The notes beneath the pieces are model-generated. The model did not search any database. It was not told the origin of the DNA and saw only the letters and a program-made list of their open reading frames with translations. Shown one piece after another: positions 12,903 to 55,905 of a stretch of 64,000 nt of DNA (its first letter is position 1; each line of letters opens with the position of its first letter). Source of the DNA: Pedobacter rhodius (GTDB lineage: Bacteria; Bacteroidota; Bacteroidia; Sphingobacteriales; Sphingobacteriaceae); assembly GCF_027213645.1 (NCBI RefSeq), contig NZ_JAPWGL010000003.1, positions 434,001-498,000 on the forward strand, written 5' to 3'. A program made the translations under genes and the position numbers.

Positions 12903-15329
12903 TTACGCTTTCTTTTTATGCTTTTTCTTTAAATCGAGGTAATCTACGTAATAAAGAACTTTAACAGAAAGGCTGTTATTCTGTGGGGATGCTAAAATCC
13001 CACTCAGGTTTCTGTTATATCTTTGCGTATAAAAAGTATCATAGGTTTCGGCGGCATCTTTGTAAGATAAAGAGAGTGTACTGCCTGGTGCAAACTGCCA
13101 GGTATAAATTAAATCGATATTGAAAACATTGTAGTTTCTATCTGTTCCGGTTAATGCCGGCCCCTGATAATCGGTTAAATTGCCATCCTGCTTAAGTAAA
13201 TAAAAATCCTTGTTTCGTCTGTCGCTCCAATAATGGCGTAACACAACCGTTAAACCCATTAAATTTGTAAAAGTATATTTTGCATCGAATGAGTTTTCAA
13301 CTGTTCTTCTGTCATATTTAGAAAAAATGGCCTGATTGCCCTGTGCGGTAACCCAATTTACATAATTATAATTCGGATTGAAGTTTAAGTCTAAACCGAA
13401 AGCAATTTTATCATTCAGCCTGAAGTTCTGAAAAAAGTAAAAGTTATAAGATTTCCCCTTAAAAAGTTGTTGTTCCCGATAACGAATGTTCCCGCCAAAA
13501 TTATAGGCTTTCGCACGATTAGGATTGATGTAAAGACCAATTGTATAGTTTTCCGGCGCCTTGTACATCTGACCATTTCTGGCTTCATAAAAGTCGTTGG
13601 CTTTAGCATCATAATTTACATCCAGTTCAGCAGACCATAAGTTTTTGAACCGGACATAAGAACCTCCCTCAATTCCAAAACTTTGATAATCGCCAGGCAT
13701 AGCCCTTCGCGAATAAGATGTGTTAAACCAGCTTTGCCATTCGTTATACCACTTGCTTGGTTTAAAAATATTGTATCCAAAACCTATACGCTGGTCTAAA
13801 AAGTTATTGTTGGTAAAAAAGCCCATATCTGATGGATCGAATTTATCATCAGCATATACCTGGTTATAACTCCAGGTGAAATTGCCGCTTTGCTTTCCAA
13901 AACGCAAGGTATAACTGTAACCGGTGCTTGTTTCTTCGCCACGCAAGTAACTCATTTTACCGCCGCCATTTACAAAGTATTTGTTCCCTTTATTATTTAA
14001 ATTGAATAATAATGCACTAACATTGGCATCGTAAGCGCTGCCTTGCCTCAAAACGTTCGTATTTATAAATGTTGCCGAACTGTTGTTTTTCAGTGACTGA
14101 TCGAAAACTAGAATATTGTAATTGGTAAGCGGCTGGGTTTCTACATTCCGAAGGTTGCCGTTTGCATCTTCCACTTCGGTTTGCATGCTGTTGGTTATCG
14201 CATTAAAAATCCCGATACCCAAACCTTTGGCTGTTCGCCCTGAAATTTTGGTGGCATTTAAAACTTTAGCTTCTTTTTGATCTTTAATTATTTTATCGCT
14301 GCTATTTATACCGCTGTAATTATAATAGGATGGGATAGAACCAATACGTTTAGAATAAAACAAATCTCCTTTATTAAAAAGCTCAGTTCCTTCAGTAAAG
14401 AACTGCCTGTTTTCGTTAAATTTGACTTCAAAAGGCGTCAGGTTTAAAATCCGGTTATCCGATTGTACCTGTCCAAAATCGGGTACCAGTGTCATGTCTA
14501 AAGTAAAACTATTATTTATCCCATACTTTACGTCCATACCGCCATTAAAACGCGATGTTGTATTTTTTACACCAGGAAGATTAACGGGATAATGATTTAC
14601 ATAAGCAGAAAGATATGGTGAAAAGGAAAGGCGAAGCGGCGGTTTAATATCTTTTAGACCTGTAAAAAGACCCTCCTGATTGATGAAACCGTTTACAGTT
14701 GGATTAACATAATTCCAGAAAGTTTGCACATTGGTCCGCTGTATTCTTCTGCTGAAATTTAAGCCCCAGTTTTGAATGTCTTTACTGGAAAAGCGCAACG
14801 CTGAATACGGAATTTTCATTTCGCAAGTCCAGCCTTGCTCATCAATTTTTACGGCGCTTTCCCAAACGGCATTCCAGTTCGGGTCTTCATCGCCCACCTG
14901 CGAATACTTGGCATCGAATTGTACTCCGGCAGCGGTTACAAAAAAACCATTACCATTCATTTTATCGTAAAACGGATCAACAATTATCGAGATGAAATCA
15001 GCATTACCAATATTATCACGAGATACCAGTTCGTGCGAAACGCTGTCTTTATCATCGTACATACGGGCATAAACGTAAATGGCCACATCATCGTAAAGCA
15101 CTTTCATTTCCGTTCTTCTATCCTGTTTTTCTACTCTTCCCGGCACCGGCCTGATTTCGAAAAAATCGGTCGCCACCGGAACTTTTACCCAACAGGCATC
15201 GTCCAAAACCCCGTCAATTTTTGGTGTTTCAATAGTTCTTAAAGCAGGTAATTGTTTCTGTTTTGAAGGATCCTGTGCATAAGAGATCGAATAGGCGAAC
15301 AATAAAAACAGGAGTAGGAAAATTCTCAT
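12903..15329 (-). CDS. DUF5916 protein with CBM9-like N-terminal domain
   Basis: An 808-residue exported protein. The signal peptide is residues 1-19 (SISYAQ). Residues of about 30-225 form a family 9 carbohydrate-binding-like domain (TPKIDGVLDDACW near the start, WTCEMKIPYSALRF later). The rest is a DUF5916 region that looks like an outer-membrane beta-barrel with repeated aromatic strands. Proteins of this type are widespread in Bacteroidota and no biochemical role is established to my knowledge. It is transcribed alone and divergently from ffh, with a palindrome in the shared upstream region. Confidence 0.85.
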   Translation of the reverse strand: MRIFLLLFLLFAYSISYAQDPSKQKQLPALRTIETPKIDGVLDDACWVKVPVATDFFEIRPVPGRVEKQDRRTEMKVLYDDVAIYVYARMYDDKDSVSHELVSRDNIGNADFISIIVDPFYDKMNGNGFFVTAAGVQFDAKYSQVGDEDPNWNAVWESAVKIDEQGWTCEMKIPYSALRFSSKDIQNWGLNFSRRIQRTNVQTFWNYVNPTVNGFINQEGLFTGLKDIKPPLRLSFSPYLSAYVNHYPVNLPGVKNTTSRFNGGMDVKYGINNSFTLDMTLVPDFGQVQSDNRILNLTPFEVKFNENRQFFTEGTELFNKGDLFYSKRIGSIPSYYNYSGINSSDKIIKDQKEAKVLNATKISGRTAKGLGIGIFNAITNSMQTEVEDANGNLRNVETQPLTNYNILVFDQSLKNNSSATFINTNVLRQGSAYDANVSALLFNLNNKGNKYFVNGGGKMSYLRGEETSTGYSYTLRFGKQSGNFTWSYNQVYADDKFDPSDMGFFTNNNFLDQRIGFGYNIFKPSKWYNEWQSWFNTSYSRRAMPGDYQSFGIEGGSYVRFKNLWSAELDVNYDAKANDFYEARNGQMYKAPENYTIGLYINPNRAKAYNFGGNIRYREQQLFKGKSYNFYFFQNFRLNDKIAFGLDLNFNPNYNYVNWVTAQGNQAIFSKYDRRTVENSFDAKYTFTNLMGLTVVLRHYWSDRRNKDFYLLKQDGNLTDYQGPALTGTDRNYNVFNIDLIYTWQFAPGSTLSLSYKDAAETYDTFYTQRYNRNLSGILASPQNNSLSVKVLYYVDYLDLKKKHKKKA

Positions 15330-34624: not shown

Positions 34625-36781
34625 ATGCGCATACCTAAAATTAACATCCCTAAAAAATATTTAAAAATCGGAGCCTGGGTTTTAGGTGTTTTTTTGATTG
34701 TTTGCATGGCTTTAGGCGCGGTTGCCTATAGCAAAAGAGAGGCGCTGCTAAAAAAAATGGTTGCTAAAGCCATCGCAAAAGCCAATAAAGATTATGGTTT
34801 GGATGTTAAAATCGGATCGGCAGGATTTACTGGTTTAAGTACCGTGAAAATGACCGCGATTTCTGTTGTTCCAAAAGAAAGGGATACCCTTTCCAATATT
34901 GCTGAACTTAGTGTAGGCGTTAAACTTTGGCCGCTTATTTTTGGCAATGTAAAGTTAGCCGAACTTAAATTAAACAATGGTTTTGTAAGTGTTGTCTTTA
35001 AAGACTCCACATCAAACATCGATTTTATCCTTAAAAGAAAGAAAAAAGATAGCACAACAACAAAAAGCAAAGTAAACCTGGCCGACATCGCAAGCAACAT
35101 CCTCAATGAGGTTTTATATAAAATACCTGATGATATGGACGTTAAAAACATGGTTTTTAAACTTAATGATAATGATACGGCTAAATTAAATTTCGCGACT
35201 GCTGCTACTATAGATGGAGGCGATTTAAAATCGACAATAAATGTAAACAACGGCGAATCTGTCTGGCATTTTGACGGGGAAGTAAATCCGGGAAGCAAAG
35301 AATTAAATATAATGGCCTATGCAGACGGGAAAAAGTTGGAATTACCATACCTGAATAACAAGCTCCATGCAAAACTAAGCTTCGATACCCTGCAAACAGA
35401 ACTAAAAAATGCAAAGTATAGTGGTGATGATTACAAAATTTCCGGTTCATGGTCGGTTAAAAATATGTTGATTAACCAACCTCGGATTGCCAGCAACGAC
35501 ATTATTGTTCAAAGCGCCAAATTGGATGCAGATGTTTTGGTAGGCCCTAATTATATTGCATTAGACAGCAGTTCTACAGCCTATTTAAAAAACGCATCCA
35601 TTCATCCTTATGTTAAATACACTTTAGGCAAAAATAAGATTTACGAATTAAAATTAAATGCCGAAGAACAAGACGCACAAGCTATCTTTCAGGCTTTTCC
35701 ACAGGGATTGTTCGAATCGCTCGACGGCTTGAAAGTTCAGGGAAAAATAAAATACAATTTAAATTTCTACCTTGATACGGCAATTCCGGATAGCGTTAAA
35801 TTCAGTTCTACGTTAACGCCTGTTGATTTTAAGATCGTACAGTGGGGCAAAACCAACCTGCAAAAAATTAACAGTCCTTTTGTTTATACCCCATACGAAT
35901 ATGGCAAGCCCATGCGCGACATTACAATTGGTCCTTCAAACCCAAATTTTACGCCTTTAAATGCCATATCTAAAAACTTTATTAATGCCGTTTTAACTGC
36001 AGAAGACCCTTCTTTTTTTACCCACAATGGCTTTGTTGAAGAATCCATCCGTAAGTCGATTGCCGTAAACTTTAAGGAGAAAAAATTTAAACGTGGCGGA
36101 AGTACAATCAGTATGCAGCTCGTAAAAAATGTTTATTTAAGTCGGCAGAAAACCCTTGCCCGTAAAGCGGAGGAAATTTTAATTGTTTGGTTAATTGAGC
36201 ATAATCATTTGATTAGCAAACAAAGAATGCTCGAGGTTTACTTCAATATTATGGAACTTGGTCAGAATATTTACGGCATTGGTGAAGCATCGAGGTATTA
36301 TTTTGGAAAACAACCTGCTGATTTAACCATTGGTGACGGACTTTTTCTGGCCAGCATTGTACCAAAGCCAAAAGCATCTATGTATAAATTTATGGCCGAC
36401 GGGAGCTTGAAACCTTATATGTTTAACTATTTCAGGTTTATGGGAAATATCATGGCAAGGCGGGGTTTAACATCTGCTGATACCTCAGGTTATGGTTTCT
36501 ATAATGTAAGGTTAAGGGAAGGCTTACGTAAATATCTTGCCCCTGACACTGCTGTGGTTGATACCTCTGCATTTGACGATGATGATAATATGAATGATGT
36601 ACCTGTTGTGATGCAGGATAAAAGCAAAAATCTTTTTGACAGGATTTTCGGTGGGGGTAAGAAGGATACTTCAAGCCGACCAGGCACTAAGCCAACCGAT
36701 ACCGTAAAAACTAAAAAGCAATTAAGACAGGAACGAAGGGAACAGCGGCGGAGAGAAAAAGAACTGGAGAATGGGGGGTAA
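34625..36781 (+). CDS. AsmA-like/GT51 peptidoglycan glycosyltransferase fusion
   Basis: A 718-residue protein. An N-terminal membrane helix (about residues 12-34) is followed by a region of some 400 residues that looks AsmA/TamB-like (VKIGSAGFTGLSTVKMTAI, LWPLIFGNVKLAELKLNNG). The GT51 domain then carries E460-DPSFFTHNG, R490-GGSTISMQL, R513-KAEE and FNIMELG-x-x-IYGI (from 540), the catalytic and lipid II-binding motifs of class A PBPs and MtgA. No transpeptidase domain follows; the C-terminus is a basic, low-complexity tail (QERREQRRREKELE). It is predicted to polymerise glycan strands in the periplasm. The N-terminal assignment is my inference. Confidence 0.8.
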   Translation: MRIPKINIPKKYLKIGAWVLGVFLIVCMALGAVAYSKREALLKKMVAKAIAKANKDYGLDVKIGSAGFTGLSTVKMTAISVVPKERDTLSNIAELSVGVKLWPLIFGNVKLAELKLNNGFVSVVFKDSTSNIDFILKRKKKDSTTTKSKVNLADIASNILNEVLYKIPDDMDVKNMVFKLNDNDTAKLNFATAATIDGGDLKSTINVNNGESVWHFDGEVNPGSKELNIMAYADGKKLELPYLNNKLHAKLSFDTLQTELKNAKYSGDDYKISGSWSVKNMLINQPRIASNDIIVQSAKLDADVLVGPNYIALDSSSTAYLKNASIHPYVKYTLGKNKIYELKLNAEEQDAQAIFQAFPQGLFESLDGLKVQGKIKYNLNFYLDTAIPDSVKFSSTLTPVDFKIVQWGKTNLQKINSPFVYTPYEYGKPMRDITIGPSNPNFTPLNAISKNFINAVLTAEDPSFFTHNGFVEESIRKSIAVNFKEKKFKRGGSTISMQLVKNVYLSRQKTLARKAEEILIVWLIEHNHLISKQRMLEVYFNIMELGQNIYGIGEASRYYFGKQPADLTIGDGLFLASIVPKPKASMYKFMADGSLKPYMFNYFRFMGNIMARRGLTSADTSGYGFYNVRLREGLRKYLAPDTAVVDTSAFDDDDNMNDVPVVMQDKSKNLFDRIFGGGKKDTSSRPGTKPTDTVKTKKQLRQERREQRRREKELENGG

Positions 36782-51150: not shown

Positions 51151-52728
51151 TTAAAAATTACTTGCTGTAGTAGTATCCCACCATAAGCGAGATGCAATAT
51201 CATCTTTACCTGAACTTAAAAAAGTTGAAGCTTCAGTAACAGCCGCAGCATTTCCGGTTCTTTCTGCAGGTACAAATACCAATCTTTTTATCCATTGGTC
51301 TGCAGCTATAACACCCCAGTCAGGACTGCTGTCGTTTTTAGCTACATGTGGAATTTTTGGATAACCTGTTCTTCTAAAATCGACCCATGCTTCCAGCGTG
51401 TTTGTAAAACTGGATAAATATTTCTGTGTAATAATTTTTTCCAGTTTCAATTCATTTGAATCGCCCGCATTCCAGGCTACTGTAATAGCAGAAAGTGCTG
51501 TAAAATTATTTCTGCTCTCTTTGGGGTCAATATAGTTAATGGGTTTGCTTGTTGCATCAGCCAGGTAGGCATCAACGCCTCCTGCGCCCCAATCGGCAAA
51601 TGAAAGGCGTACGCCATTCTCATAATTTGTCTTAGCGTCACCTGCGTTAGCCCAGCCCCTTAATGCCGCTTCGGCTTTAAGAAAGGCTATTTCTGCTGCA
51701 GTAAATCCTCTTCTGCTTTGTACGGAATTGAAATCTGTGCTTACAGTTGAATACGGAACCCTGTCGTCTTTGGCGTTCAGATATGCACCATTTCGAATGC
51801 CTTTGTATTTATATGCCGGATGATCGGTAACCAGGGAAGCATCACTTACCTCAGAAAAATATTTGCTTATCCGCCCGTCTTTTAAACCTACCATAAAAGA
51901 TTCCATTGCTGCGCCCATACGGGTATCGTTCCAACTGAAAGAAATCATTGCTACAGGCATTACCTCTCCATTTAAAGAAATAAGAAAATTGTCTGCATTA
52001 GTCGTAATTAATCCAACCGGATCAGCCAAGGCTTTTTCGCCTTGTGTTTTAGCTAAGGCGGGATTAATTTTAACCAAACGCATAGCCAGGCGTAAACGTA
52101 ACGAGTTGATTAATTTTAACCATGCAGCCATGTTACCTTTATAACTCGGATCGAACTTAGTAAAGCCTGTATAAGTTGGGTTAGCTTTAAAATTTGTTTC
52201 TATCTGATCTAACTGAGTAAAAAAGCTATTATATAAATCTGATTCCTTATCATATTTAATAGAACCTAAGCCTGCTGTACCATAATTCGAATAAATTACA
52301 GGGCCATATATTGCCGTTAATTTAGATATCGCTAAAATTCTAACCAGCTTTGCCCAATCGCCAAATAATGGTAGATTTTTTTCCTGGGCAAGTTGTATGA
52401 TTTGTTTTGATGGAGACATTACACTGCCGTATATACGATTCCAGTATGCATCGATCCACCTGAGGTAATATGTTGTATTATTTACACTTGAAACAAAGGG
52501 CGTTGGTGTACCCATGTAGCCCATCCAGTTATCATAACACAAATCTTCTTCAATTTGATGGCCCATAAGGTTAAATAACATACCAGAGAAAGAAGATCCG
52601 ACCAAATTAAAATCCTGCTCTAACATTTTATCTGTTATCTGATTAGGATTTGTATTTATCCCCTCAAAATTCTTGGTGCAAGAGTTGAGTACAATCAAAG
52701 CAAGCACCATTAAACATAATTTTTTCAT
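51151..52728 (-). CDS. SusD/RagB-like nutrient-binding outer membrane lipoprotein
   Basis: A 525-residue lipoprotein (lipobox VLNSCTKN after an 16-residue signal) of the SusD-like_2 type. The N-terminus FEGINTNPNQITDKM and the middle SLRLRLAMRLVKINP are typical. SusD caps the SusC transporter on the cell surface and binds the incoming substrate. It starts 12 bases after the susC-like gene, on the same strand. No glycan hydrolases or regulators are adjacent, so the substrate is unknown. Confidence 0.92.
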   Translation of the reverse strand: MKKLCLMVLALIVLNSCTKNFEGINTNPNQITDKMLEQDFNLVGSSFSGMLFNLMGHQIEEDLCYDNWMGYMGTPTPFVSSVNNTTYYLRWIDAYWNRIYGSVMSPSKQIIQLAQEKNLPLFGDWAKLVRILAISKLTAIYGPVIYSNYGTAGLGSIKYDKESDLYNSFFTQLDQIETNFKANPTYTGFTKFDPSYKGNMAAWLKLINSLRLRLAMRLVKINPALAKTQGEKALADPVGLITTNADNFLISLNGEVMPVAMISFSWNDTRMGAAMESFMVGLKDGRISKYFSEVSDASLVTDHPAYKYKGIRNGAYLNAKDDRVPYSTVSTDFNSVQSRRGFTAAEIAFLKAEAALRGWANAGDAKTNYENGVRLSFADWGAGGVDAYLADATSKPINYIDPKESRNNFTALSAITVAWNAGDSNELKLEKIITQKYLSSFTNTLEAWVDFRRTGYPKIPHVAKNDSSPDWGVIAADQWIKRLVFVPAERTGNAAAVTEASTFLSSGKDDIASRLWWDTTTASNF

Positions 52729-52740
52729 TATTTTAAGATA

Positions 52741-55700
52741 TTAAAAGTTTAACTTAAGACTAAGCCCGTAAGAACGGGTACCAGGTACAGCAAAAACATC
52801 ATTTGCCTGCATACTATTGCTGGTACTCATCGCCTGCTCCGGATCGAAAGGTGATTTTTTATAGAAGAAAAATAAGTTACGGCCAATTAAAGAAACAGAC
52901 GCTGATTTAATTGCCGAACCTTTAACAGGTATATTGTAGGCTAAGGATACCTGCGCCAAACGAACATTGGTTCTGGAGAAAACATAAGGTTCCATGATTC
53001 CATTTCTGTCGCCAATAACTGAATAGTAGAGCGCCGGGTCAATGGATGTTACAGGCATATTACCCTGAATGGCATTAATCGGAATGGTTCCGGCATCACG
53101 TGCTTCACCGCTTCTTTTGCTTACCCCATACGAATCTAAGAAAGCCTCGGTTTTAGAGAAAGCAACACCACCAAACTTAGCCGTTACTAAGGCACTTAAA
53201 CTTAAATCGCCGTAAGTAAATGTATTGTTCCAGCCAGCTATAAAATTTGGATTTAAATTACCGACATATTCTTGTGTTGCAGCCTTAGTTGGTTTTCCTG
53301 ATGCATCTAAAATAATCTGACCGGCAGCATTGCGTGCGAATTTAAAAATGTATAAATCGTTAAAAGAACCGCCGGCTTTAATTATCGAATTAAAGCCTTC
53401 GCTGTCACTCCCCACCTGATAACCAGGATTATCGGCAATTAATTCTACAATTTTATTTATGTTTCGTGATAAGTTTATGGTGGTATTCCACTTAAATTTA
53501 TCATTTTTTATCGGGTCTCCGCCTAATGTTAACTCGAAACCCTGGTTGGTCACTTTACCTGCGTTGATGTAATAAAATGTGTAACCCGATCCCGAAGGAG
53601 CCGGCAGGGATAAAAATTGATTCGTACTTGAGTTTTTATAATAAGTAAAATCAAAATTTAACCTGTCGCCTAACAAACGGCTTTCTAAACCAACCTCGTT
53701 ACTGATTATTTTTTCAGGTACTAATGTTGCAAAAGGTGTTTGGGTATTTCTGTTAATACCGCCTATGCCGTTCGGTCCACCGGCACCACCTATGGTATTA
53801 CCTGGATTTACGATGTTATACGGCACTTCATTACCAACCTGCGATGTTGATGCCCTTAATTTTAAGAAATTAATTTCTGTGGGCAGGGTTAACATTTGGC
53901 TTATTATGGTAGATAAACCAGCTGAATAATAAAAATAAGAATCGTTTCCGGTTGTTGCCAATGTAGAAGCCCAATCGTTACGACCTGACAAATCCAGGTA
54001 AATCAAATCTTTATACCCTAAAGAGGCATTGGCAAATAAGCCTTGTTTCTGAACCCTGCTATATGTTTGATTAACTATTACATTATAGGGCAGATTTGCA
54101 AAACTGAAAAAATTCGGGTACTGAAGTGGTATCGTACCGTTATTAAAAGTCAATCCATCATTAAAAGTGTAATCCTGAATGCTAGCGCCCAATACACTAT
54201 TTAAACTAAATTTACCAAAGCTATTATCATAACTCAAAATGGCATCACCATATAAAGCTTTATCATTATATTTTGTATAATTCCAGGTACCATTAGAACT
54301 AACACTTACCGAATTACCGCCCGCAGCATAACGATAATCTAATAACCGGTCATTATAATCAATATTTCCACGCACATCAAATTTAAAATGCGGTAAAAAC
54401 GAATAGGATGCCTTTGCCGTTGCAATTACCCTGCTGCTGGTAGACAGCTTTGGGTCGCTATTTAATTCCCAGTAGGGATTGTTTTGCTTTTCTTCAGTAG
54501 AATACCAGTTTTGTTTGTACAAATTTCGGGTCGCATCAAAAATCTGGTAATTCGTTTTATATTCATCAAAATTTCTTTCCCGTGCAAATAAATATAAGCC
54601 TGTTAACGGGTTATTATAATAACCTGCACCCGGCCGATTCTTTGATTTTTCGTAAGAGAACCTTACATTTCCGCTTAGTGTAAGCTTATCATCAAATAAT
54701 TTTGTTTCCTGACTTAAGGTTACATTATGCTTATTGTAAGTGCTGGTAGGCACAATACCTGATGCATTATTATTTCCATAAGAAAAATAAGTAGTTGTTC
54801 TTTCATTTCCGCCAGATACAGACAGTGTATTAATGGTATTTACGCCTGTTTGAAAAAAATCATCAATGTAATTGCTTTGGTAATTTCCTTTAGTTTTAGA
54901 CCAACTGTAATCGCTGCCAGCTATTGCTCCATAATTAAATTGAAACTCAGGTAATGTTGCCGCAGTACTGAAATTTATGGTAGAATTTAAAGCAATAGCA
55001 ATTTTACCCGCCTGGCCTTTTTTAGTGTTGATTAAAATTACACCGTTAGCGCCCTGGCTACCGTATAAAATTGAACCATTGGCACCTCTTAAAATAGTAA
55101 CCGATTCAAAATCGTCCTGGTTTAGTGCAGAAAGACCATCGCCCCCATCTGTTCCACCATAAGATCCTGGTTGTCCGCCTTTATTATTTACAACCGGAAC
55201 GCCATCGATTACAAAAAGTGCTTCGCTATTTCCCGCAATTGATTTGGATCCCCTTAACACTGTTTTTGTCGAGCCACCCACACCGGAATTACTAATTCCA
55301 ACATCAACACCGGCAGCCTTACCGCTCAAGGCTTCCATAAAATTGGGCGCGCCAGCCTTTGTAAGTTCTGTGCCATTAAGTTGCTGCGCGGCAAAGGTTA
55401 ATGCCTTTTTTTCTCGTTTTACACCTAAAGCGGTTACAACAACCTCTGATAGGTTTGCATTGCCAGACGATTTTAACTTTATAGTTACACTGCTGAGGTT
55501 GCTGATATCTACTTCCTGAGATTCCATGCCTATAAATGACACCACCAATATTGTGGCATTATCAGGAACGTTTAACGTAAATTTACCGTCGCTTCCGGTA
55601 ACTGTTTTAGCGTTTGTACCTTTAGCAACGACAGTTGCACCGGGAAGCGGGTTGCCGGTTTCGTCTGTTACCAACCCACTTACCGGCTTAAATAACGCTT

Positions 55701-55905
55701 TTTTTATGCCGCCTAAACTATTTTCAATAGCCGATACATTTAAAATAAAGCTTTTATTAACTTCATTACCGGCTGCCTTTGCCGTAGTAGTTTGTAAATT
55801 AAGCGCAACAACACCCAGGAGTGCTAATTTTAGGGCGCTTTTTGTTTTACTCGAAAAGGTTATTTTTCCAGCATTTTTTGTTGTGTAAATTTTACTCATG
55901 GTCAT
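52741..55905 (-). CDS. SusC/RagA family TonB-linked outer membrane transporter
   Basis: A 1054-residue outer-membrane transporter. A long N-terminal stretch with a signal peptide (about residues 28-46, LLGVVALNLQ to TAKA) precedes a carboxypeptidase-regulatory-like domain (about 77-160, SGLVTDETGNPLPGATV). The plug follows (VDVGISNSGVGGSTKTVLRG, VIDGVPVVN, GSQGANGVILINTKKG). The rest is a large barrel ending in LSLKLNF, with the C-terminal Phe typical of barrel insertion. It imports a substrate bound by the SusD partner, using TonB. Upstream lies a long AT-rich region with an inverted repeat. Confidence 0.94.
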   Translation of the reverse strand: MTMSKIYTTKNAGKITFSSKTKSALKLALLGVVALNLQTTTAKAAGNEVNKSFILNVSAIENSLGGIKKALFKPVSGLVTDETGNPLPGATVVAKGTNAKTVTGSDGKFTLNVPDNATILVVSFIGMESQEVDISNLSSVTIKLKSSGNANLSEVVVTALGVKREKKALTFAAQQLNGTELTKAGAPNFMEALSGKAAGVDVGISNSGVGGSTKTVLRGSKSIAGNSEALFVIDGVPVVNNKGGQPGSYGGTDGGDGLSALNQDDFESVTILRGANGSILYGSQGANGVILINTKKGQAGKIAIALNSTINFSTAATLPEFQFNYGAIAGSDYSWSKTKGNYQSNYIDDFFQTGVNTINTLSVSGGNERTTTYFSYGNNNASGIVPTSTYNKHNVTLSQETKLFDDKLTLSGNVRFSYEKSKNRPGAGYYNNPLTGLYLFARERNFDEYKTNYQIFDATRNLYKQNWYSTEEKQNNPYWELNSDPKLSTSSRVIATAKASYSFLPHFKFDVRGNIDYNDRLLDYRYAAGGNSVSVSSNGTWNYTKYNDKALYGDAILSYDNSFGKFSLNSVLGASIQDYTFNDGLTFNNGTIPLQYPNFFSFANLPYNVIVNQTYSRVQKQGLFANASLGYKDLIYLDLSGRNDWASTLATTGNDSYFYYSAGLSTIISQMLTLPTEINFLKLRASTSQVGNEVPYNIVNPGNTIGGAGGPNGIGGINRNTQTPFATLVPEKIISNEVGLESRLLGDRLNFDFTYYKNSSTNQFLSLPAPSGSGYTFYYINAGKVTNQGFELTLGGDPIKNDKFKWNTTINLSRNINKIVELIADNPGYQVGSDSEGFNSIIKAGGSFNDLYIFKFARNAAGQIILDASGKPTKAATQEYVGNLNPNFIAGWNNTFTYGDLSLSALVTAKFGGVAFSKTEAFLDSYGVSKRSGEARDAGTIPINAIQGNMPVTSIDPALYYSVIGDRNGIMEPYVFSRTNVRLAQVSLAYNIPVKGSAIKSASVSLIGRNLFFFYKKSPFDPEQAMSTSNSMQANDVFAVPGTRSYGLSLKLNF

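Follow-up and report, generated by a model that had tools for sequence, protein, structure and literature searches.

Does a gene in Pedobacter rhodius that seems to join an AsmA-like envelope domain to a peptidoglycan glycosyltransferase encode a true fusion of the two, and if so what might such a protein do at the cell envelope? The window analysed here is a 64,000-nucleotide stretch of the P. rhodius genome (assembly of 4.68 Mb in 11 contigs), in which a sequence-only reading had pointed to glycosyltransferase family 51 (GT51) motifs lying behind about 400 residues that resemble AsmA/TamB-like proteins. We combined profile searches, structure prediction, phylogeny and genome comparison to define the parts of this gene, its distribution among the Bacteroidota and the readings of its function that the data favour.

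Organization of the fusion gene

The gene is an intact open reading frame with an ATG start, and its parts are listed in Table 1. The full-length model had a mean pLDDT of 83.8 and a pTM of 0.72. Within the predicted beta-groove domain a helix (residues 38-57) is followed by long strands that continue to residue 406, and the linker behind it contains three residues, G408, N416 and F419, that were invariant in alignments of 44 rows; the block covering residues 411-440 was modelled with pLDDT values of 87-94. Values fell to 30-42 in the blocks covering residues 641-690, beyond which a helix was modelled at residues 697-716. The single N-terminal membrane helix suggests an N-in/C-out topology.

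Table 1 Parts of the fusion gene and their nucleotide positions in the window
Feature	Position	Strand	Length and basis
Whole gene, AsmA-like/GT51 fusion	34625..36781	+	718 aa; ORF list, full-length relatives
Predicted N-terminal inner-membrane helix, residues 10-36	34652..34732	+	Both models; hydrophobic run in the sequence
Predicted AsmA/chorein-type beta-groove domain, residues 38-406	34736..35842	+	Models, AsmA and DUF748 matches of relatives, Foldseek, profile matches in the same genome
Conserved ordered linker, residues 408-436	35846..35932	+	Alignments of 44 rows; model
GT51 peptidoglycan glycosyltransferase domain, residues 437-640	35933..36544	+	PF00912 at 437-585; fold match to 3nb7; catalytic E460, E517
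Low-confidence linker and basic helical tail, residues 641-718	36545..36778	+	Models; tail missing in L012-L018

The sequence-only reading had also proposed that the basic C-terminal tail could bind lipids or nucleic acid. The positively charged tail and its helix are real features of the window protein, yet the tail is missing in a set of aligned relatives (L012-L018). Nucleic-acid binding is unlikely because the predicted topology would place the tail in the periplasm; it is moreover lineage-specific and the fastest-changing part of the protein.

A GT51 domain with conserved catalytic residues

The Pfam model PF00912 (Transgly) matched residues 437-585 with an E value of 1.2e-42 and 145.7 bits against a cut-off of 27, and no other Pfam model exceeded its own cut-off in the window protein. 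The GT51 motifs were located where they had been placed from the letters alone, within residues 460-546: ED at 460-461, RGGSTISMQL at 490-499, RKAEE at 513-517 and the last motif from N541 to G546. The accompanying claim that transpeptidase motifs are lacking agrees with our scan, which returned no match of the transpeptidase model PF00905 in the window protein at E ≤ 10, although the HMMER filters discard most matches above about 0.1.

Residues E460, D461 and E517 were identical in all 77 aligned rows, made up of the window protein and 76 of 80 loci. The motif filter had removed the other four loci, three of which were recovered and likewise carry these residues, and the same positions were invariant across 22 rows of a second, overlapping set from other sources. 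The two catalytic glutamates of GT51 enzymes lie in motifs 1 and 3, and E460 and E517 align with the enzyme of Aquifex aeolicus. The GT51 part of the model (range 431-627) matched the glycosyltransferase domain of Aquifex aeolicus (3nb7) over 175 residues with a Z score of 14.6 and an rmsd of 2.6, the best among the GT51 structure matches, and the predicted fold spans the whole domain. dN was lower in the GT51 domain than in the N-terminal domain in eight of eight comparisons, being lowest in GT51 and highest in the tail. Synonymous sites were saturated in nearly all comparisons, so we used only the ranking of dN and not dN/dS.

All 12 other GT51 rows, eight of which are near relatives of one another, have R or K at the motif 5 position. 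Among the 96 fusion rows, 90 have Y, H, N, Q or T there, preceded by a short insertion; the window protein has Y. The altered position is presumably the motif 5 arginine, which is not known to be catalytic. As the change extends across the clade, GT51 activity is not to be taken for granted. The PF00912 match of the window protein stops at profile position 157 of 178, compared with position 177 in the other four GT51 proteins of the genome, because the end of its domain differs from that of other GT51 enzymes; in a remote fusion protein, L022, the match extends to position 174.

Two departures from the family pattern were seen in single rows. In a Mucilaginibacter copy (L073) the GGSTI of motif 2 reads GGSGI, which is either a real change or a sequencing error, and the row of one f9 genome (L021) carries a ten-residue insertion directly after its NIIEWGP motif (columns 640-649) that the other row from the same genus, L020, does not have. 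Hydrophobicity of the jaw, the segment between motifs 1 and 2, was tried as an indicator of membrane docking and discarded because fusion rows (-0.80 to 0.00) overlap with MtgA-type rows (-0.76 to -0.46).

Sequence relationships of the N-terminal domain

Taken alone, the window protein had no Pfam match above cut-off in its N-terminal domain, where PH_9 appeared below threshold only, and the GspN model TIGR04411 aligned with residues 19-132 below its cut-off (E 1.3e-4). When the Pfam AsmA model was searched against the P. rhodius genome it found one other gene and not the fusion gene. Relatives proved more informative. Among 44 N-terminal domains, picked below 75 % identity and searched at E ≤ 1, the AsmA model PF05170 matched 24 (best 6e-9) and the DUF748 model PF05359 matched 17 (best 2.5e-12), with the next Pfam families matching two at most; GspN (TIGR04411) and LIC_11026 (NF047499) matched 30 each. 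Models of YhdP and TamB also match N-terminal domains across the family. One of ten full-length relatives scanned at E ≤ 0.001 exceeded the AsmA cut-off (33.8 vs 29.8 bits), five had AsmA or DUF748 matches below threshold and four had no such match. Of two remote fusion proteins scanned at E ≤ 0.1, L025 matched DUF748 below cut-off and L022 had no AsmA-type match. The four remaining GT51 proteins of P. rhodius and a short GT51 protein from a different family, scanned as a control, gave no AsmA match at E ≤ 0.1.

A profile built from the N-terminal domain found three other genes in the P. rhodius genome, with E values of 1.0e-8 (frame of 1671 aa), 1.5e-7 (809 aa) and 7.9e-7 (1503 aa). In the parts available of these three proteins, Pfam assigns the 1671-aa frame to DUF748 and the 809-aa frame to AsmA, each above cut-off, and the 1503-aa frame to DUF748 below cut-off. 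Profile evidence of this kind suggests membership of the AsmA superfamily for the family, through its relatives, and not for the window protein alone.

Predicted fold of the N-terminal domain

An AlphaFold2 model of the N-terminal domain, built with 44 sequences, was beta-rich with a mean pLDDT of 85.9 and a pTM of 0.73, and ran from a membrane-length helix (residues 10-36) through a second helix (38-57) into long strands. A beta-groove predicted behind an N-terminal membrane helix is a feature of the AsmA superfamily. Comparison of a predicted structure with AsmA and TamB had been suggested as a check, and Foldseek against the PDB at E ≤ 0.001 returned two matches only, the LPD-3 complex (2.2e-5) and TamAB (6.9e-4). 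Both had an rmsd of 20, with query TM-scores of 0.25 and 0.12, which is what a bending groove might give, yet such values also call for caution. LPD-3 is a bridge-like lipid-transfer protein.

The strands were amphipathic as a set, the mean being 2.20 compared with 1.36 after shuffling, and the observed mean was reached in 2 of 2000 shuffles. This is as a lipid groove would show. Single strands fell below 0.05 in 4 of 16 cases, the most amphipathic being 200-207, 226-233 and 370-384, and other beta folds show amphipathic strands too. If the roughly 16 long strands are continuous, at 4.8 angstrom each the groove would measure about 75 angstrom.

Structural alignment with VIA-align was rejected as proof of the fold. 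The N-termini of Vps13 (Z 8.2, rmsd 4.9, 159 residues aligned) and Atg2 (Z 7.7) were matched, and several beta-barrels tie with them; the top row was apolipoprotein B with a Z score of 9.6.

The proposed AsmA/TamB likeness of the stretch of about 400 residues thus finds agreement in the profiles of relatives, in the AsmA-type proteins of the same genome and in the predicted fold, with the window protein itself passing no AsmA threshold.

Distribution and phylogeny

The sequence-only reading had called for a search for proteins with the same domain order, and this identified a widespread and conserved family. Within the Sphingobacteriaceae, 100 of 101 sampled genomes have a match, one copy each, including all 91 genomes of good quality (completeness of 90 % or more, contamination of 5 % or less); the sole genome without a match is 60 % complete. 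At the level of the class, matches occur in 62 of 247 genomes and 43 of 141 genera, with open frames of at least 588 aa in 61 of the 62 (the frame in G501 is 375 aa) and an internal stop in two. In both counts fusion status was read from frame length, together with a GT51 match directly behind the N-terminal match in 15 of 15 family genomes examined. Across a phylum sample, full-length relatives were present in at least 22 of 198 genomes, that of P. rhodius included, and the N-terminal profile alone found 18 of the 198 at 1e-15. Among the matches listed, those closest among named organisms come from Pedobacter species, of which ten show 85-90 % identity, and the genera include Pedobacter, Mucilaginibacter, Sphingobacterium, Spirosoma, Larkinella, Pontibacter and Flavobacterium. 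The fusion is therefore no oddity of a single genome; many Bacteroidota have it, as do almost all members sampled from the Pedobacter family.

The 22 fusion rows grouped together with support of 98/99 in a maximum-likelihood tree of 34 GT51 domains, a single clade that is consistent with one origin. The tree has long branches and gives no firm order for the fusion clade, MtgA and short GT51 proteins. Short GT51 proteins of f16, another family of the phylum (L028-L035, 294-313 aa), rank directly behind the fusion proteins among the matches of the window protein, sharing 45-47 % identity with its GT51 part; in the tree they make up a separate clade, and the one scanned had no AsmA match.

P. rhodius itself has four other GT51 genes. 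The sequence-only reading had stated that MtgA-type enzymes are short and that class A penicillin-binding proteins (PBPs) carry a transpeptidase behind GT51, and both statements apply in this genome, where one MtgA-type protein of 242 aa compares with 718 aa for the fusion and each of three class A PBPs matches PF00905. All 15 family genomes examined, six of which are of 1.7-2.0 Mb and in which PBPs were assigned to their class by length, contain the fusion gene, an MtgA-length GT51 gene (225-276 aa) and at least one of PBP length (at least 730 aa). Single-copy retention in the family alongside both other types suggests that the fusion does a job that neither of them does.

Genomic neighbourhood

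Gene names in this section are presumptive. In Pedobacter loci a divergent gene for an Mrp-type ATPase precedes the fusion gene, and genes for hypoxanthine phosphoribosyltransferase (Hpt) and phosphatidylserine decarboxylase (Psd) lie downstream. Mucilaginibacter loci have the Hpt relative upstream, where it was found, and no Psd relative in the flank, and Flavobacterium flanks, where the neighbours differ, contained no relative of Mrp, Hpt or Psd at E ≤ 1e-6. A radA-like gene lies directly upstream, or one gene beyond, in six of the eight flavobacterial loci compared, and trmD-, rimM- and rpsP-like genes lie near the fusion gene in Spirosoma and Larkinella, as they do in the window. A functional operon with conserved gene partners was rejected. 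The fusion appears to be a chromosomal gene that is inherited stably and has no evident operon partner. The suggested link between wall growth and outer-membrane transport gained no support here, the flanks compared containing neither an outer-membrane partner nor a conserved operon.

Elsewhere in the window we noted a SusD-like lipoprotein and TonB-dependent receptor pair (51151-55905, minus strand), ordinary for nutrient uptake in Bacteroidota, and a DUF5916 protein with a CBM9-like domain at its N-terminus (12903-15329, minus strand).

Proposed function and alternative explanations

We propose, with confidence that is about evenly balanced, that the gene encodes an inner-membrane-anchored, transpeptidase-free GT51 glycan polymerase whose catalytic domain would be carried behind an AsmA/chorein-type beta-groove. 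The computed basis for this is the domain order, two predicted folds, intact catalytic glutamates, the grouping of the GT51 parts in one clade and the retention of one copy in almost every family genome. The groove would bind lipid tails, whether of lipid II, spent undecaprenyl carrier or phospholipid, and would fix the position of the GT51 domain with respect to inner membrane and wall. From lipid II that domain would make uncrosslinked glycan, to be crosslinked afterwards by separate transpeptidases. The groove may deliver lipid II, return spent carrier, bind another lipid or only fix the height of the enzyme.

These roles are not equally probable. That the groove is a conduit, lifting lipid II from the inner membrane to the GT51 site or returning undecaprenyl pyrophosphate, we consider unlikely; the site would then lie some tens of angstroms into the periplasm, and polymerisation of glycan would occur at the wall instead of the membrane surface. 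Since a groove of about 75 angstrom could set the enzyme away from the membrane, this reading is worth testing. It is possible, if doubtful, that the domain is no more than a rigid post, holding no lipid and serving to set distance or to bind partner proteins, with the GT51 domain bending back to lipid II in the membrane. GT51 enzymes act on lipid II within the membrane, which agrees with such a post, as does the shortness of the domain beside the frames of 1503 and 1671 aa recovered with its profile from the P. rhodius genome. Against it stand the amphipathicity of the strand set and the identity of the domain's relatives in sequence and fold, which are lipid-bridge proteins. That the likeness to AsmA is due to chance, the domain being an unrelated beta-rich linker, is largely refuted and extremely improbable: the missing Pfam AsmA match of the window protein and the low TM-scores and high rmsd from Foldseek would fit such a linker, but AsmA, DUF748, YhdP, TamB and GspN models match across the family, the profile recovers AsmA-type proteins of the same genome, and the two fold matches are to LPD-3 and TamAB.

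Other explanations concern the enzyme. The changed motif 5, together with the GGSGI of L073, could indicate a pseudo-enzyme that binds lipid II without polymerising it, a very improbable reading given that E460, D461 and E517 are invariant in 77 of 77 rows and that dN is lower in GT51 than in the N-terminal domain in every comparison. The motif 5 change would also suit a protein in which lipid transfer comes first, the AsmA part moving lipid toward the outer membrane and GT51 serving mainly as a regulator that binds lipid II or peptidoglycan. Two reports implicate YhdP, TamB and YdbH of E. coli in carrying phospholipid to the outer membrane (PMC8593681, PMC12045153), which lends the idea some weight. 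We nonetheless judge it distinctly unlikely, as the catalytic glutamates are kept in all 77 rows, the genome has three other AsmA-type frames (809, 1503 and 1671 aa) and the groove, at about 16 long strands, looks too short to cross the whole periplasm.

A groove-borne glycan polymerase would bring together two fields, the study of phospholipid transport by AsmA-type bridges and that of wall synthesis by GT51 enzymes. The fusion offers a concrete case for examining whether a bridge-like lipid-transfer domain can act on polyprenyl-linked precursors of the wall, and whether Bacteroidota couple wall synthesis physically to lipid traffic. Were the conduit reading true, a wall precursor would be the dedicated cargo of a bridge-like lipid-transfer domain.

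Comparison with known systems

Both domains are known already, and their combination appeared to be undescribed in the literature searched, a body that leaves out most subscription journals and in which we found no description of an AsmA-type domain paired with GT51. Seven AsmA-like proteins have been counted in F. johnsoniae in a paper whose main text contains neither 'transglyc' nor 'glycosyltransferase' (PMC12045153); a term search of PMC6791001 and the accessible part of PMC12419801 gave nothing on an AsmA/GT51 fusion.

The monofunctional MtgA-type enzymes (TIGR02070) share with the fusion the GT51 domain, its catalytic glutamates and the absence of a transpeptidase, and TIGR02070 is its best NCBIfam match (E 2e-41). 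However, the fusion scores 142 bits, under the equivalog cut-off of 182.65, its GT51 clade leaves MtgA out and its motif 5 differs. Class A PBPs (PBP1A, PBP1B and PBP1C) likewise have a membrane-anchored GT51 domain, and the closest solved GT51 structure is that of A. aeolicus PBP1A, whereas the fusion has a predicted beta-groove of about 400 residues before GT51 and no transpeptidase after it. GspN (TIGR04411) and LIC_11026 (NF047499) resemble the fusion through their matches to the N-terminal domains of its relatives, although these are models without GT51. With the chorein-type superfamily of AsmA, DUF748, YhdP and TamB the fusion shares an N-terminal membrane helix followed by a predicted beta-groove, but its groove is shorter and a GT51 enzyme domain follows it.
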